A stretch of DNA of 43,644 nt from Candidatus Coprousia avicola (lineage in GTDB: Bacteria; Actinomycetota; Coriobacteriia; Coriobacteriales; Coriobacteriaceae), in NCBI GenBank assembly GCA_018715125.1, contig DVMF01000006.1, positions 1-43,644 of the forward strand, read 5' to 3'. The translations under genes and the position numbers were made by a program. Below are positions 20,429 through 29,120 of this stretch, piece after piece; position 1 is the stretch's first letter; each line of letters opens with the position of its first letter. The notes below the pieces were generated by a model, which was given only the letters and a program-made list of their open reading frames with translations, was not told where the DNA came from and ran no database searches.

Positions 20429-20457
20429 TTGACGGCGAACAACCGTTCGTCTATCAT
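20429..20457 (+). promoter_or_regulatory. recA promoter with LexA operator in the spacer
   Basis: TTGACG (20429-20434), a 17-base spacer and TATCAT (20452-20457) form a good promoter. The spacer contains CGAACAACCGTTCG (20436-20449), a perfect match to the Gram-positive/actinobacterial LexA box CGAAC-N4-GTTCG. LexA bound there would cover both the -35 to -10 spacer and RNA polymerase contacts, so recA should be SOS-inducible. Confidence 0.88.
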
Positions 20458-20485
20458 TGAGTCAGTTCACGCGAGGAGGTATCCC

Positions 20486-21574
<1,089 letters not shown>

Positions 21575-21580
21575 GCCCCC

Positions 21581-22261
21581 ATGCCGCCGCAGGTAGAGGA
21601 TATCGCCTTCATCTATCCCGATCGTACCGAGCGCGCCGCAGCGGCGTATCGGAAGAGCAGGCCCAAGGCGCGAGTGGTGTGCACCCTGTCCTCGGGAGAT
21701 GAGCGGACAGTGTACGTTCCCGCGCGGGTTGCCCGTGCCGTCGCCAAGGAAACGCCCGATCTTCCGTGCGATATCGGGGGGCTCATCAATTGGATAGATG
21801 CCGTAGGGCGACGCGTTTGCTATGCGGCGCTCGTCGAGATGCTCGCTCAGCGCGACCACGGGGAGAGCGAGGCGCGCGACAAGCTCGCGCGCAGCGGGTA
21901 TTCGCCGGCGGCCATCGATGAGGCAGTCGAGCGCGCCCGCTCCTCGCGCTTTCTCGACGAGGAGCGCTATATGCGCTACTTCATAGCTGAGCGGCTTCGC
22001 CGCGGATGGGGGCGTCGCAAGATCGAGCAGGAGCTGCGCCGCAAGGGTGCCGACCCCACGCAGCTTGCCGATTACCCCGACGCCTTCTTTTCCGAGGATG
22101 AGGACCGGTGCCGCGCCGCAGAGCTTCTGCGGCGCAAACCCATCCCCGACGTGCGCCCGTTCGAGAAGCTCGTCCGTTTTCTGATGGGCAGGGGCTTCTC
22201 ATACGGCGTTGCCGCCGATGCGGTGAAAGCCCGACTCTCTGAGGACGGGGACGAGGCGTGA
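21581..22261 (+). CDS. recX: Regulatory protein RecX
   Basis: RecX caps or destabilises RecA filaments and limits recombination. The 226-residue protein has an N-terminal region of about 70 residues that is not conserved in the family, then tandem three-helix RecX repeats: RVCYAALVEMLAQRDHGESEARDKL, RSSRFLDEERYMRYFIAERLRRGWGRRKI (split here by position) and a third repeat around PFEKLVRFLMGRGFSYGVAADAV. The position directly downstream of recA is diagnostic. ATG 21581 is 6 bases after the recA stop, with GAGGG upstream. A promoter-bearing gap follows. Confidence 0.92.
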   Translation: MPPQVEDIAFIYPDRTERAAAAYRKSRPKARVVCTLSSGDERTVYVPARVARAVAKETPDLPCDIGGLINWIDAVGRRVCYAALVEMLAQRDHGESEARDKLARSGYSPAAIDEAVERARSSRFLDEERYMRYFIAERLRRGWGRRKIEQELRRKGADPTQLADYPDAFFSEDEDRCRAAELLRRKPIPDVRPFEKLVRFLMGRGFSYGVAADAVKARLSEDGDEA

Positions 22262-22299
22262 AGCCTTGGCGCACACCGCTCTTGACGGTCCGTTTACAA

Positions 22300-22328
22300 T
22301 TGACAGCTGGACCAGCTCCACGTAGACT
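22300..22328 (+). promoter_or_regulatory. Putative rny promoter with palindrome in the spacer
   Basis: TTGACA (22300-22305) and TAGACT (22323-22328) are exactly 17 bases apart, about 150 bases before the rny start. The spacer holds a perfect palindrome, AGCTGG-A-CCAGCT (22305-22317), in the position expected of a repressor operator. No known consensus is recognised. Confidence 0.6.
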
Positions 22329-22427
22329 GAAATGGTCATTTGCCTTGTGATATATGCTCATCCTCGATGAGATTGACGTTATAGACATATCTTCAAAGCG
22401 GTTGCCTATATACCACGCAAATGTCTC

Positions 22428-22445
22428 GCCCTCTCTCGGGAGGGC
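22428..22445 (+). other. Hairpin in the rny 5' leader
   Basis: GCCCTC (22428-22433) and GAGGGC (22440-22445) form a 6-bp stem with a TCTCGG loop, about 33 bases before the rny start. A T-rich stretch (TTTTTCTT) comes only 14 bases later, just before the ribosome-binding site, so this is not a standard terminator. It may be a leader structure. Confidence 0.35.
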
Positions 22446-22478
22446 CCGTTATGGATACCTTTTTCTTAAGGAGTTGGC

Positions 22479-24029
22479 ATGGAGATTTTGATTGGTATCG
22501 TCTGCCTGGCACTTGGTGCCGGCGGCGCTACGGTCGCCATGCGCAGCGCAAAGCAGGGGAGCCTTCGTGAGGCGGACGCGGCCATCGAGTCTGCGCGCAC
22601 TCAGGCAGACCAGATGATAGGCGATGCGCAGCGACAGGCGGAGACGCTCAAGAAGGAGGCCCTTCTCGAGGCTAAGGAGGAGATCCTCCAGAGCAAGCAG
22701 GCCGCCGAGGCGGAAGAGAAGCAGCGCAAGAAGGAACTCCGCACCATGGAGAACCGCATCATGCAGCGCGAGGAGTCTCTCGATCGCCGCAACGATGCCC
22801 TCGACAAGCGCGAGCACCAGCTCTCGAGCCAGGCCGGCCAGGTTGAGAAGCGCAGCCGTGAGCTCGAGGAGCTCGTCAGCAAGCAGACCGCCGAGCTCGA
22901 GCGCATATCTGAGCTCACGCGCGACGATGCCCATCAGGAGCTCCTCGACAAGGTCCGCGGTGAGGTGACGCACGAGGCGGCTGCCATCATCCGTGAATCC
23001 GAGCAGCGCGTGAAGGCCGAGTGCCACAAGACGGCGCAGGAGATCATCTCCCTTGCTATCCAACGCTGCGCAGCAGACCATACCGCCGAGGTCACCGTTA
23101 CCTCCGTGCATATTCCCTCAGACGACCTCAAGGGCCGCATCATCGGCCGCGAGGGCCGCAACATCCGCACGTTCGAGCAGGTCTCCGGCGTCAACCTCGT
23201 CATCGATGACACGCCCGAGACGGTTGTGCTCTCGAGCTTCGACCCCGTCCGCCGCGAGACGGCCCGCGTCGCCCTCGAGAACCTCATCGCCGACGGGCGC
23301 ATCCACCCGGCGCGCATCGAGGAGATGTACCAGAAGGCCTCCAGCCTCGTGCAGCAGCGCGTCCGCGAGGCCGGCGAGCAGGCCGCCTTCGATACGGGCA
23401 TCCATGACCTGCACCCCGAGCTCGTGAAGACGCTCGGCGCGCTGCGCTACCGCACCTCCTTCGGCCAGAACGTGCTGACGCATTCCACCGAGGTGGCCGA
23501 GCTCTGCGGCATCATGGCATCCGAGCTGGGCGTCGATGCGACCACGGCGCGGCGCGCCGGCCTTTTGCACGACCTCGGCAAGGCCATCGACCACGAGGTT
23601 GAGGGGCCGCATGCCGTCATCGGCGCAGACCTTGCCCGCCGTTACGGGGAGAAGCCGGTCATCGTCCATGCGATCGAGGCGCACCACGGCGACGTCGAGC
23701 CCGATTCCGTCATCGCCGTCCTCGTCATGGCCGCTGACGCCATCTCCGCCTCTCGTCCCGGCGCGCGCCGCGAGTCTGCGGAAAACTACATCAAGCGCCT
23801 CGAGAAGCTCGAGGAGATCGCCAACTCCTACGAGGGCGTCGAGCGCACGTATGCCATGCAGGCAGGGCGCGAGGTCCACGTGATGGTGCAGCCCGACAAG
23901 ATCTCCGACGCCGATTCGACCGTTCTGGCTCACGACATCGCCCATCAGATCGAGGAAGAGATGGAGTACCCCGGTCAGGTTCGCGTCGTCGTTATTCGCG
24001 AGAGCCGTGCCGTCGACATCGCAAAGTAG
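22479..24029 (+). CDS. rny: Ribonuclease Y
   Basis: RNase Y is a membrane-anchored endoribonuclease that initiates mRNA decay. The 516-residue protein has an N-terminal membrane helix (about 2-20), a long charged coiled coil (about 28-190), a KH domain with [19 protein letters not shown], and an HD domain with [17 protein letters not shown] and [11 protein letters not shown]. The C-terminal region ends [14 protein letters not shown] as in the family. ATG 22479 has TAAGGAG 5 bases upstream. The 22262-22478 gap holds its own promoter, palindrome and leader hairpin. With rnjA in the same window, both Gram-positive-type decay nucleases are encoded. Confidence 0.96.
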
Positions 24030-24050
24030 CGGGAAGATCCAGGGTTTTAT

Positions 24051-25133
24051 ATGGCGGACTCGCAGGAACTCATTTCGTTTATCGCTCAGATGACGGGCGA
24101 GTCCAACCTGCGCGTCGAGGAGAACCTCGGCGAGGGCTATGTCCGCCTGCGCGTCTCCGAGGCCGAGCGCCGGCAGGCCAAGCACGATATCCAGCATGTC
24201 GAGGATATGGTCATCGAGCTGTTGCGCAATGCGCGCGATGCCGGCGCTCAGCACATCTACGTTGCGACGTACCGTGACGACGACCTCCGTAAGGTCGTCG
24301 TCATCGATGATGGGTGCGGCGTCCCCGAAGACATGCAGGACCGCATCTTTGAGGCGCGCGTCACCTCCAAGCTCGAGAGCATGCATATGGACCGTTGGGG
24401 CGTCCACGGTCGCGGCATGGCGCTGTTCTCGATCCGCCAGAACTGCGACGAGGCACGTGTCATCACGTCTGGCACCAATTTGGGAACCGCCCTGTACGCC
24501 TGCGCCGACACATCGGTGCTCCCGGAGCGCGCCGATCAATCTAGTTGGCCCGTCGTAGAGAAAGACGACCAGGGACGTCACGTCTGTGCACGCGGCCCGC
24601 ATAACATCGTGCGCACCGTTGCCGAGTTCGCCTTGGAGGAGCTGCACGGCTGCGAGGTCTATCTCGGTTCCGCAACGGAGATCGCCGCGACGCTCTACCA
24701 GCACGCGCACCGAGCCCTCGATGCGTCCCAGCTCCTCTTTCTGGATTCCGAGGAGCAGCTCCCCGTCGTCGATCGCCTCGGATATGCCGCTGACGCCGAG
24801 GACTTCATGCGTATCGCCTGCAGCATCGGCCTCTCTTTGTCAGAGCGCACGGCGCACCGCATCCTCGCCGGCACCATAAAGCCCATGAGGAGCGTGGCCG
24901 CGCGCCTCCTGCGTGAGCGCACGGCTGCCCCGCAGGAGTCCGCCGTCGACCTTGCGCGCGATAGGCGCGGCCTGCGCATCACGCGTGACGATCTGCAGGC
25001 GTTTGCGAGGACGCTCGAGCGCGACTTCGCCGAACTCGGAGACCGCTACTATCTCACACTTGCCCAAGAGCCCACCGTGCGCGTGCGCGGGGACCGTATC
25101 ACCGTCACGTTCGACATCCATAAGGATGAGTAG
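24051..25133 (+). CDS. GHKL-fold ATPase of unknown function
   Basis: A 360-residue protein with a Bergerat (GHKL) ATP-binding fold and no kinase, sensor or gyrase/MutL module that I can recognise. The N box is EDMVIELLRNARDAGA (E56, N60), G1 is VIDDGCGVP (86-92), and the ATP-lid/G2 segment is DRWGVHGRGMALFSIR (114-129). No phospho-acceptor H-box precedes the N box. Residues about 165-270 and the C-terminus (helical, then FDIHKDE) match nothing I know. This layout is closer to Hsp90/MutL/MORC-type N domains than to histidine kinases. It lies 21 bases after rny and 83 bases before spoVS, with AGGG 6 bases before ATG 24051. The function is unknown; an RNA- or development-linked role is only suggested by context. 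Confidence 0.85.
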   Translation: MADSQELISFIAQMTGESNLRVEENLGEGYVRLRVSEAERRQAKHDIQHVEDMVIELLRNARDAGAQHIYVATYRDDDLRKVVVIDDGCGVPEDMQDRIFEARVTSKLESMHMDRWGVHGRGMALFSIRQNCDEARVITSGTNLGTALYACADTSVLPERADQSSWPVVEKDDQGRHVCARGPHNIVRTVAEFALEELHGCEVYLGSATEIAATLYQHAHRALDASQLLFLDSEEQLPVVDRLGYAADAEDFMRIACSIGLSLSERTAHRILAGTIKPMRSVAARLLRERTAAPQESAVDLARDRRGLRITRDDLQAFARTLERDFAELGDRYYLTLAQEPTVRVRGDRITVTFDIHKDE

Positions 25134-25138
25134 GTTTC

Positions 25139-25167
25139 TTGCCCATATTCCCAGCTTACGGTAAGCT
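25139..25167 (+). promoter_or_regulatory. Putative spoVS promoter with overlapping inverted repeats
   Basis: TTGCCC (25139-25144) and TAAGCT (25162-25167) are 17 bases apart in the gap before spoVS. AGCTTAC-G-GTAAGCT (25153-25167) is a perfect inverted repeat covering the -10. A second one, AGCTCA-A-TGAGCT (25164-25176), shares its central AGCT. This gives three AGCT half-sites at 25153, 25164 and 25173. Confidence 0.4.
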
Positions 25168-25216
25168 CAATGAGCTAGCGCACCCCCATCGAACCACATT
25201 TGCAGGAGCAACGTAC

Positions 25217-25534
25217 ATGGATTACCTGAAGGTCTCGAGCAAATCATCCCCCGCATCGGTCGCCGGTGCGATCGCCGGTATGGTGAAAGATGGGGTTCCC
25301 GTCAATATGCAGTGCGTGGGCGCCGGCGCCGTCAATCAGGCCATCAAGGCCATGGCGATCGCGCGCGGTTTCCTGATTCCCACAGGGTTCGACATCTCGT
25401 GCGCTCCCGTGTTTTCCGATATCCTGATAAACGGCGAATCGCGCACTGCCATACGGCTTTCGGTATACGTGCACCAGCTCAGCCTTCAGAACAGCGAGCT
25501 CGTCGACCCCCATGATGTTCAAACGGTGGCGTGA
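25217..25534 (+). CDS. spoVS: Stage V sporulation protein S (SpoVS)
   Basis: SpoVS/Alba-like nucleic-acid-binding protein of 105 residues. The start DYLKVSSKSSPASVAGAIAG and the core QCVGAGAVNQAIKAMAIARGF are near-identical to the family. The usual length is about 86 residues, so roughly 17 residues form a C-terminal extension (QLSLQNSELVDPHDVQTVA). In Bacillus it affects spore coat and cortex formation; homologues in non-spore-formers suggest a wider regulatory role. ATG 25217 has AGGAG 8 bases upstream; the frame is open further upstream to 25139, but the family alignment places the start here. miaB begins one base after the stop. Confidence 0.95.
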   Translation: MDYLKVSSKSSPASVAGAIAGMVKDGVPVNMQCVGAGAVNQAIKAMAIARGFLIPTGFDISCAPVFSDILINGESRTAIRLSVYVHQLSLQNSELVDPHDVQTVA

Positions 25535-25535
25535 T

Positions 25536-26909
25536 ATGTCTCAATCTGCTTTCTCGTATCCGGTGCTCTCACAGAAGACCTACTTCATCCGCACCTTCGG
25601 CTGCCAGATGAACCTGCATGATTCCGAGCGCGTCAGCGGCGTGCTCGATGCGTGCGGTTGCCTTGAAGCCGCCGAGCCCGCAGAGGCGGATATCGTCATA
25701 TTCATGACGTGCTGCGTGCGCGAGGCCGCCGACCAGCGTCTATACGGGCAGTGCTCCTCGCTTAAAAGCCTTCCCGCAGGCCCATCGGGCAAGCGGGTGG
25801 TCGCCATCGGCGGCTGCATCGCCCAGCGCGATGGAGAGCGCCTTATCGACAAGCTCGATAACGTTCAGGTGGTCTTTGGCACCTCTGCCATCAATCATGT
25901 TGCGGAGCTGCTCGCGCATGCGTTTGAGTCCGACGAGCCCCAGGTGGTTACGGCTGAAGACCCCGCTTGCGACGCGACGGCGCTTCCCTGGCATCGCGAG
26001 ACCCCGTATCACGCCTGGGTGCCCATCATGACGGGCTGCAATAACTTCTGCACGTACTGCATCGTCCCTTACGTCCGCGGTCGTGAGAAGAGCCGTCCTA
26101 TCGAGAACATCATCGACGAGGTCACCGGTCTCGTGCGAGCCGGCGTGCGCGAGGTGACCCTCCTCGGCCAGAACGTCAACTCGTACGGCCGCGACCGTTA
26201 CGGCACGCCGCGCTTCGCCGAGCTGTTGCGCGCCGTCGGGGAGACGGGTATCGAGCGCATTCGCTTCACCTCGTCCCATCCCAAAGACCTGCTTCCGGAG
26301 ACCATCGACGCTATAGCCGAGGTGCCCGCGGTCATGCCGCACCTCCATCTAGCGGTGCAATCCGGTTCCACGCGCATTCTGAAGCTCATGAACCGACGGT
26401 ACACGCGCGAAGACTATCTCGATCTTGTTCAGCGGGTCCGCGAACGCGTCCCCCATATCGCCCTCACAACCGACATCATCGTCGGGTTCCCCGGTGAGAC
26501 GGAGGAGGATTTCGCCGAGACGCTCTCGCTGGCGCGCGCCGCCCGGTTTTCCCAAGCGTTCACGTTCATCTACTCGCGGCGCGCCGGGACGCCCGCCGCG
26601 GAGATGCCCGACGATACGCCCCGCGAGCGCATTCAGGATCGCTTTGACCGCCTGGTGCACGTTATCGAGGATACGGCCCATGCCTTCAACCAGCAGGACT
26701 TGGGACAAGTCGTTCCGGTCTTGGTCGAGGGCGTATCCAGGAAGGACTCCCATCGCCTGCAGGGCAAGAGCCCCAAGAACCAGACGGTGCACGCTCCCGT
26801 GCCCGAGGGCATCGATCCCGGCTCGCTTGTCGGCAAGATCGTCGATGTCGAAGTGCAGACGGCCCGCACCTGGTACCTTGCAGGCGAGATGCGCGGCGAG
26901 CCTCGATGA
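25536..26909 (+). CDS. miaB: tRNA-2-methylthio-N6-dimethylallyladenosine synthase MiaB
   Basis: Radical-SAM methylthiotransferase that adds the 2-methylthio group to i6A37 of UNN-decoding tRNAs. The 457-residue protein carries the MiaB signature RTFGCQMNLHDSERVSG, cluster cysteines in MTCCVRE and GGCIAQRDG, the radical-SAM motif CNNFCTYC followed by IVPYVRGREKSR, and a C-terminal TRAM domain. ATG 25536 starts one base after spoVS; in-frame ATGs at 25512 and 25515 would overlap spoVS and lack a better ribosome-binding site. The stop overlaps miaA (ATGA), which makes the i6A substrate. Confidence 0.95.
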   Translation: MSQSAFSYPVLSQKTYFIRTFGCQMNLHDSERVSGVLDACGCLEAAEPAEADIVIFMTCCVREAADQRLYGQCSSLKSLPAGPSGKRVVAIGGCIAQRDGERLIDKLDNVQVVFGTSAINHVAELLAHAFESDEPQVVTAEDPACDATALPWHRETPYHAWVPIMTGCNNFCTYCIVPYVRGREKSRPIENIIDEVTGLVRAGVREVTLLGQNVNSYGRDRYGTPRFAELLRAVGETGIERIRFTSSHPKDLLPETIDAIAEVPAVMPHLHLAVQSGSTRILKLMNRRYTREDYLDLVQRVRERVPHIALTTDIIVGFPGETEEDFAETLSLARAARFSQAFTFIYSRRAGTPAAEMPDDTPRERIQDRFDRLVHVIEDTAHAFNQQDLGQVVPVLVEGVSRKDSHRLQGKSPKNQTVHAPVPEGIDPGSLVGKIVDVEVQTARTWYLAGEMRGEPR

Positions 26910-27827: not shown

Positions 27828-29120
27828 ATGGGCCGCTTTCCGCTGGTGCCCACTCTGCCTGCCGCCGAGAGGGCCCTGCTCGTCGGGGTCGAGGGGCTGC
27901 AGGGTTCCTGGCCGGTCGACCGCTCCCTTGACGAGCTCTCGCGACTCGCTGCGACTGCGGGTGCCGAGGAGGTGGCGCGTCTCACGCAACGGCTCGAACG
28001 TCCGTCTCCACGCACGTACATCGGTTCCGGAAAGGTGGAGGAGCTCTGCCGGCTCGTTCATGCGCTTTCCGTCGACGTCGTCATCTTCGACGACGACCTA
28101 TCTCCGTCGCAGCAGGCGAATCTCGAGCGCGCGGTCGGCGAACCGGTCAAGATCATCGATCGAACCGCCCTCATCCTCGATATCTTCGGTCTTCACGCCA
28201 CCACGCGTGAGGGGCGGTTACAGGTTCAGCTAGCGCAACTCCAGTATCTCCTGCCGCGGTTGCGCGGCATGTGGAGCCATCTCGCTAAGGAGCAGACCAG
28301 AGGCGGTATCGGAAGCCGTTTCGGTCAGGGAGAGACGCAGCTGGAGGTGGACCGTAGGCTCATCCGTCGCCGAATCGCCACGCTCAAGCGCGAGCTCGAG
28401 CTGCTCGCTAGGCGCCGTGGCGTGCAGGCGAAGGTCCGCAACGATTCGGCGATGTTCCGCATCGCGCTTGCGGGATACACCAACGCAGGCAAGTCGTCGC
28501 TCCTGAACGCCCTCACGGGCGCGGCTGTTCTCGCTCAGGACAAGTTGTTCGCGACCCTCGATCCTACGACCCGTGCCTTCCATCTGCCCGGAGGGCGCGA
28601 TGTCACGATCACCGACACCGTCGGCTTCATTCAGAAACTGCCCCATGGGTTAGTCGAAGCGTTCAAATCGACGCTGGCAGAAGCCCGTGAGGCCGATCTC
28701 ATCGCCGTCGTCGTCGATGCCTCCGATGATGATTGCGGCCGGCATATCGACGCTGTCATGCAGGTACTTCGCGAGATAGGTGCCTCGTCTACCCCTACGC
28801 TCATGGTGTTCAACAAGATAGATCAGATAGACGCAGATGCCGTTCGGGCCCTATCGCATCGGTATCCCGATGCGATATTCTGCTCTGCGCTCACCGGCCT
28901 GGGTATCGAGGATCTCGTCTCCCGGCTCAGCGAGGAAGCGGCGCGCCAAGATGACCTTCTGGAACTGGTGATGCCGTATAGCGAAGGCACCGCCATCTCA
29001 CTTCTTCGCCGCATCAGCCGGGTGATTGCGGAGGAGTATGGAGAGCGCGGCGTGCGGCTCGTGGTCAAGATCCCGCACCGCTACTCCGCGCGATTTGCAA
29101 ACTGGCGCACCGATCTTTAG
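27828..29120 (+). CDS. hflX: GTPase HflX
   Basis: HflX is a ribosome-splitting GTPase that rescues stalled 70S ribosomes after heat or antibiotic stress. The 430-residue protein has the HflX N-terminal domain (RTYIGSGKVEEL, VVIFDDDLSPSQQANLE, KIIDRTALILDIF), the linker helices QLAQLQYLLPRLRGMW and GGIGSRFGQGETQLEVDRR, and a G domain with GYTNAGKSSLLNAL, DTVGFI and NKID. ATG 27828 is four bases downstream of the miaA stop, with GAGGGGG about 10 bases upstream. It is the last gene of this plus-strand block and converges with the acyltransferase gene. Confidence 0.95.
   Translation: MGRFPLVPTLPAAERALLVGVEGLQGSWPVDRSLDELSRLAATAGAEEVARLTQRLERPSPRTYIGSGKVEELCRLVHALSVDVVIFDDDLSPSQQANLERAVGEPVKIIDRTALILDIFGLHATTREGRLQVQLAQLQYLLPRLRGMWSHLAKEQTRGGIGSRFGQGETQLEVDRRLIRRRIATLKRELELLARRRGVQAKVRNDSAMFRIALAGYTNAGKSSLLNALTGAAVLAQDKLFATLDPTTRAFHLPGGRDVTITDTVGFIQKLPHGLVEAFKSTLAEAREADLIAVVVDASDDDCGRHIDAVMQVLREIGASSTPTLMVFNKIDQIDADAVRALSHRYPDAIFCSALTGLGIEDLVSRLSEEAARQDDLLELVMPYSEGTAISLLRRISRVIAEEYGERGVRLVVKIPHRYSARFANWRTDL

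Follow-up and report, generated by a model that had tools for sequence, protein, structure and literature searches.

A MutL-like GHKL ATPase encoded directly downstream of the RNase Y gene in Coriobacteriia

A GHKL ATPase gene between rny and spoVS

The window analysed here is a 43,644-nucleotide stretch of contig DVMF01000006.1 from Candidatus Coprousia avicola (Coriobacteriaceae). It carries a forward-strand cluster that runs from recA and recX through rny, the gene for RNase Y, to spoVS, miaB, miaA and hflX, and between rny and spoVS lies the gene for a GHKL ATPase, the subject of this work (Table 1). Pfam and NCBIfam searches confirmed the neighbours rny, spoVS, miaB, miaA and hflX; RNase Y and SpoVS on either side, and tRNA-modification and ribosome-rescue genes downstream, had been read at the outset from the DNA letters. 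The GHKL reading frame starts with ATG and holds no internal stops, and its start Met is kept in 26 of 27 non-divergent homologues. The rny stop lies 21 bp ahead of the GHKL start. No terminator-like site was found within 22200–25700, and the span from the promoter-like site at 22300 to 25700 thus fits one transcript; rny and the GHKL gene are probably co-transcribed.

Table 1. Features of the rny–GHKL region in window coordinates; residue numbers are those of the GHKL protein.
Feature	Position	Strand	Basis
recA	20429..21574	+	gene call
recX	21581..22261	+	domain search
Promoter-like site upstream of rny, 10/12	22300..22328	+	consensus match only
rny, RNase Y	22479..24029	+	TIGR03319 1.5e-216; RNase_Y_N, KH, HD
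GHKL ATPase gene (main finding)	24051..25133	+	360 aa, homologues in relatives
N-terminal module, residues 1-33: helix then beta hairpin with ENLGEGYVRL	24051..24149	+	AF2, alignment
MutL-like GHKL/Bergerat ATPase domain, residues 34-206	24150..24668	+	Pfam; MutL profile 8.6e-10; VIA-align Z 12.4 (B. subtilis MutL)
N-box IELLRNARDAGA, residues 55-66; ELLRNARDAGA	24216..24248	+	conservation
G1 box DDGCGVP, D86-P92	24306..24326	+	conservation
TSK motif, T105-K107, common to MutL	24363..24371	+	conservation, profile comparison
G2 box HGRGMAL, H119-L125	24405..24425	+	conservation
Helical segment, possibly HTH-like, residues 207-288	24669..24914	+	AF2; HTH_3 3.7e-4 in one member, below cut-off; structural Z <=3.6
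S-x-R-x3-R motif (S264, R266, R270), C-terminal half	24840..24860	+	conservation
C-terminal helix and beta hairpin, residues 311-360	24981..25130	+	AF2; without confident fold match
spoVS	25217..25534	+	SpoVS Pfam 1.6e-33
miaB	25512..26909	+	Pfam/NCBIfam
miaA	26906..27823	+	Pfam/NCBIfam
hflX	27828..29120	+	Pfam/NCBIfam

ATP-binding motifs and domain anatomy

In Pfam searches, residues 46–140 of the GHKL protein matched HATPase_c (1.9e-9, above the cut-off) and HATPase_c_3 (6e-8). The N, G1 and G2 boxes and the TSK motif are conserved in 31 diverse homologues; Pfam, conservation and the predicted fold agree in setting the N, G1 and G2 motifs that define the GHKL superfamily within a Bergerat fold, just as the original prediction had read them. 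Within the N-box, E56 is the candidate general base and N60 the candidate Mg-binding residue. The position of E56 four residues before N60, which is the spacing of MutL, is occupied by Glu in all 27 core members and indicates hydrolysis; with its motifs intact, the protein probably hydrolyses ATP.

An AlphaFold2 model (mean pLDDT 82) comprises an N-terminal helix and hairpin, the GHKL domain to residue ~206, a helical segment to ~288, a linker of low confidence, and a C-terminal helix and hairpin. Residues S264, R266 and R270 of the helical segment are invariant across the 31 diverse members. The long C-terminal part, predicted to belong to no recognised family, indeed received no name: Pfam assigned no family to it, a profile search against the PDB returned nothing significant, Foldseek with this half by itself gave no match below E 0.47, and the best VIA-align Z was 4.6. 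A strong match along the whole protein to some characterised family had been fixed beforehand as a result that would tell against the prediction; none was found.

Were the helical segment a true helix-turn-helix, the protein might be an ATP-gated, DNA-binding regulator of transcription whose target could be its own rny operon. In one member (L063), an HTH_3 match (3.7e-4) coincides exactly with the S-x-R-x3-R segment, weak HTH matches are scattered through PHROGs and NCBIfam, and the DNA-binding regions of ArgR, Fur, GntR, NsrR and FixK2 give weak structural matches. However, all HTH matches fall under curated cut-offs, any one Pfam HTH model is matched by at most 2 of 31 members, structural Z values do not exceed 3.6, and a one-to-one linkage to rny would be unusual for a general regulator. 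The HTH reading of the C-terminal half is suggestive only, and we regard a regulator of this kind as unlikely.

Distribution and linkage to rny

Of 60 relatives, 59 carry the GHKL gene. Within the class Coriobacteriia, whose members are common in the human gut, 147 of 149 genomes have it, and all 124 genomes of good quality have a single copy. A profile search across Actinomycetota recovered it from 118 of 296 sampled genomes. All 118 matches reach at least 5e-56, and no best match fell between that value and the limit of 1e-12. Among the best 80 named-genome loci listed, all are from Coriobacteriaceae, Atopobiaceae or near kin, including a Collinsella sp. An268 locus 99% identical to that of the window. 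The viral contigs searched held no relative; a phage search gave a single weak partial match (28.6% over 29% of the query), and a plasmid search only one Collinsella record and two MutL genes.

The 177 fetched loci with the gene, among which some genomes are represented more than once, all have rny immediately upstream in the same orientation, and the two genes mostly overlap or are separated by less than ~25 bp. Gene spacing was counted on longest ORFs, which makes start positions approximate. Independently, mapped matches place the GHKL gene just downstream of rny at the expected spacing on the same contig and strand in 104 of 106 Actinomycetota genomes; in the remaining 2, the genes are on different contigs. 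An order confined to this one genome, which had been named in advance as grounds for rejection, is thereby contradicted, as the gene stands beside rny across Coriobacteriia and wider Actinomycetota. Other links in the cluster break, through absence of spoVS or insertions between spoVS and miaB or between miaA and hflX, but the rny–GHKL link holds.

Presence follows the same pattern. The RNase_Y_N domain occurs in 211 of the 296 Actinomycetota genomes, and 117 of the 118 GHKL-bearing genomes also have rny, the exception (G404) being fragmentary and 79% complete. The resulting table of 117/1/94/84 gives a Fisher p of 4e-22, a value that overstates independence as the genomes are related. That 94 genomes have rny but not the GHKL gene indicates that RNase Y as such can do without it. 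At 20 rny-bearing loci without the GHKL gene, no relic of it was found, and what comes after rny is spoVS, miaB or some other gene. On an rny tree, the GHKL presence label requires 5 changes compared with a shuffled mean of 17, and at least 3 are forced by well-supported branches; the tree was built by a quick method, and such counts do not separate gain from loss. Most simply, this is an old gene with several losses. The correlation of GHKL and rny distance matrices is no better than that of GHKL and miaB and is not distinctive. Linkage and co-occurrence are circumstantial evidence, and co-occurrence within one phylum is confounded by descent.

The original prediction had also tied the ATPase to SpoVS. 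In that case, the protein would be a nucleoid- or SpoVS-linked factor acting with the Alba-like SpoVS, and RNase Y a mere neighbour in a conserved cluster. Most Coriobacteriia loci do have spoVS right after the GHKL gene, but in one deep lineage the order is rny–GHKL–miaB and no spoVS was found there, and spoVS is retained at three loci that lack a GHKL gene (L185, L186 and L189, which represent two family codes). The predicted order rny–GHKL–spoVS therefore stands in its first half, where rny nearly always adjoins the GHKL gene, but spoVS is a usual, not an obligatory, partner; we consider a SpoVS-linked factor improbable.

The GHKL genes of this deep lineage (f40; L060, L061, L062, L063, L091 and L092) are shortened and diverged. 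They start near window residue 22, lacking residues 1–21, and their G2 region reads HGAGLSLYHI or is further changed, one member having lost the H and G there. With these two alterations, ATP use may differ in f40.

A PHP-domain protein is encoded in the rny–GHKL cluster at 14 of 38 wider GHKL loci (L081:7556-8389 and 13 others), located either immediately behind the GHKL gene or in the spoVS–miaB interval. It is akin to nucleoside bisphosphate phosphatase/RNase RNM, under NCBIfam cut-offs, and is absent from the window cluster, with a relative elsewhere in the window genome. At L079:10726-11433, a xylose-isomerase-like TIM-barrel protein takes its place between spoVS and miaB. Assignment of the gene between spoVS and miaB as ymdB was rejected, the tested members being the PHP-domain protein and, in one case, the TIM-barrel protein.

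Relation to other GHKL proteins and to RNase Y control

The best profile match of the GHKL domain is MutL (8.6e-10). In structure, it aligns to B. subtilis MutL with Z 12.4 and rmsd 4.1 over 152 residues; topoisomerase VI-B and GyrB come close behind, so that the structural ranking among the three is not decisive. Like the N-terminal ATPases of MutL, MLH1 and PMS2, the protein has a GHKL domain with an E-x3-N box, D-x-G-x-G and TSK. Those proteins differ in having their own S5 transducer and a C-terminal dimerisation/endonuclease domain, both absent here: Pfam detects no S5-fold transducer (DNA_mis_repair, PF01119) and the region after residue 206 is predicted helical, Pfam and NCBIfam give no match to the MutL C-terminal domain, and the MutL equivalog TIGR00585 scores 37 bits against a cut-off of 180. 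What the GHKL protein has instead is its own C-terminal half and another gene partner, rny. The early statement that a MutL module is lacking is thus correct for the transducer and the C-terminus but not for the ATPase domain, which is nearest to MutL.

Across same-order genomes, PF01119 was absent from all 30 searched, the window genome included, and was found in 11 of 14 controls; the bacteria of these 30 genomes appear to lack MutL.

A MutL-derived ATPase kept near recA and recX and still serving DNA repair would accord with the top sequence and structure matches, with the presence of both genes in the cluster and with relatives devoid of MutL. Against this, the protein has neither S5 transducer nor MutL C-terminal domain, and its constant close partner is rny rather than recA (median distances 761 bp for recA–rny and 20 bp for rny–GHKL); we give a repair function little credence. 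MORC and paraMORC proteins also join a MutL-like GHKL ATPase to an extra C-terminal part, and they have an S5 domain, a patchy mobile distribution and restriction-modification neighbours (PMC2292703). The GHKL protein is instead vertical, single-copy and rny-linked, and neither an S5 domain nor restriction-modification neighbours were found in it or at its loci.

Sensor histidine kinases share the Bergerat ATP-binding fold (HATPase_c), whereas the GHKL protein has no HisKA/H-box, sensor or receiver and does have the hydrolytic Glu. Pfam gave no HisKA match and NCBIfam kinase matches were far under cut-offs; H-box, receiver and gyrase modules, expected from the outset to be missing, were not found in either collection. 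SpoIIAB structures match weakly (Foldseek 1.6e-3), and Pfam and NCBIfam yield no SpoIIAB/RsbW family match. An unorthodox kinase or SpoIIAB-like anti-sigma-type switch that phosphorylates or sequesters a partner, which the HATPase_c domain common to both classes and weak Foldseek matches to each might suggest, is most improbable given the lack of H-box and receiver, the hydrolase pattern of E at N-4, and the additional modules that flank the ATPase domain in this 360-aa protein.

RNase Y is a main mRNA-cutting enzyme and starts mRNA decay in many bacteria, and its control is known mainly from Bacillus and relatives, partly through YlbF/YmcA. Linkage to and co-occurrence with rny, the marks by which we judged an RNase Y accessory factor, are both found for the GHKL protein, and we conclude that it is probably a functional partner of RNase Y. 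In support, we count adjacency to rny, co-occurrence, vertical retention, the hydrolytic signature, an RNA-decay neighbour (the PHP protein), and YlbF absence with PSP1 presence. From the initial idea of an RNA- or stress-linked ATP switch, an undescribed GHKL ATPase tied by gene order to RNA decay remains, but the stress role is unsupported.

By analogy with other hydrolytic GHKL proteins, ATP binding would close the lid of the GHKL protein and pair two subunits, and hydrolysis would open the pair. As there is no S5 transducer, the conformational change would be passed to the protein's own C-terminal half, through the helical segment with S264, R266 and R270 and then the helix and hairpin. 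This half would contact RNase Y or its RNA substrate and so set when or where RNase Y cuts; we infer both the dimer switching and the physical contact with RNase Y. That the protein is a dedicated, ATP-hydrolysing RNase Y accessory factor, made from the same transcript and working in this manner, has in our judgement an even chance of being correct.

Stable binding of RicT (YaaT) to RNase Y in Bacillus requires the presence of YmcA and YlbF (PMC10470536). The PSP1 family (RicT/YaaT) occurs in 56 of 60 relatives, and Com_YlbF exceeds its cut-off in none of the 60. The YlbF/YmcA family is likewise missing where the GHKL ATPase occurs (0 of 118 genomes), which is weak evidence for replacement, as Com_YlbF is rare in Actinomycetota anyway (5 of 296). 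Com_YlbF is not among the Pfam matches of the GHKL protein, and the Y-complex or Ric proteins of Bacillota (YlbF, YmcA, YaaT) are unrelated to it in sequence and have no ATPase domain; the likeness would be their role as RNase Y accessory factors (PMC10470536), which for the GHKL protein is proposed only. We hypothesize that the GHKL protein may stand in for YlbF/YmcA, which in Bacillus couple RicT to RNase Y. More tentatively still, and with the odds rather against it, a MutL-type GHKL ATPase could have been recruited in an early ancestor of Actinomycetota into an ATP-driven RNase Y control complex, gaining a new C-terminal module and taking the place of YlbF/YmcA.

Searches of the open-licence PMC literature, for RNase Y with GHKL in Actinobacteria or in Coriobacteriia, found no paper describing this family. 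If the RNase Y control complex is real, its ATPase would be the first GHKL ATPase known to us to act in bacterial mRNA decay, and a MutL-type ATPase would be serving, unusually, outside DNA metabolism. A single-copy ATPase beside rny throughout Coriobacteriia is a concrete candidate for the missing control of RNase Y. One genome without the GHKL gene (G433) has a Com_YlbF gene in its rny cluster, immediately behind miaB (L198:4399-4710); in Bacillus subtilis, ymcA follows miaB.
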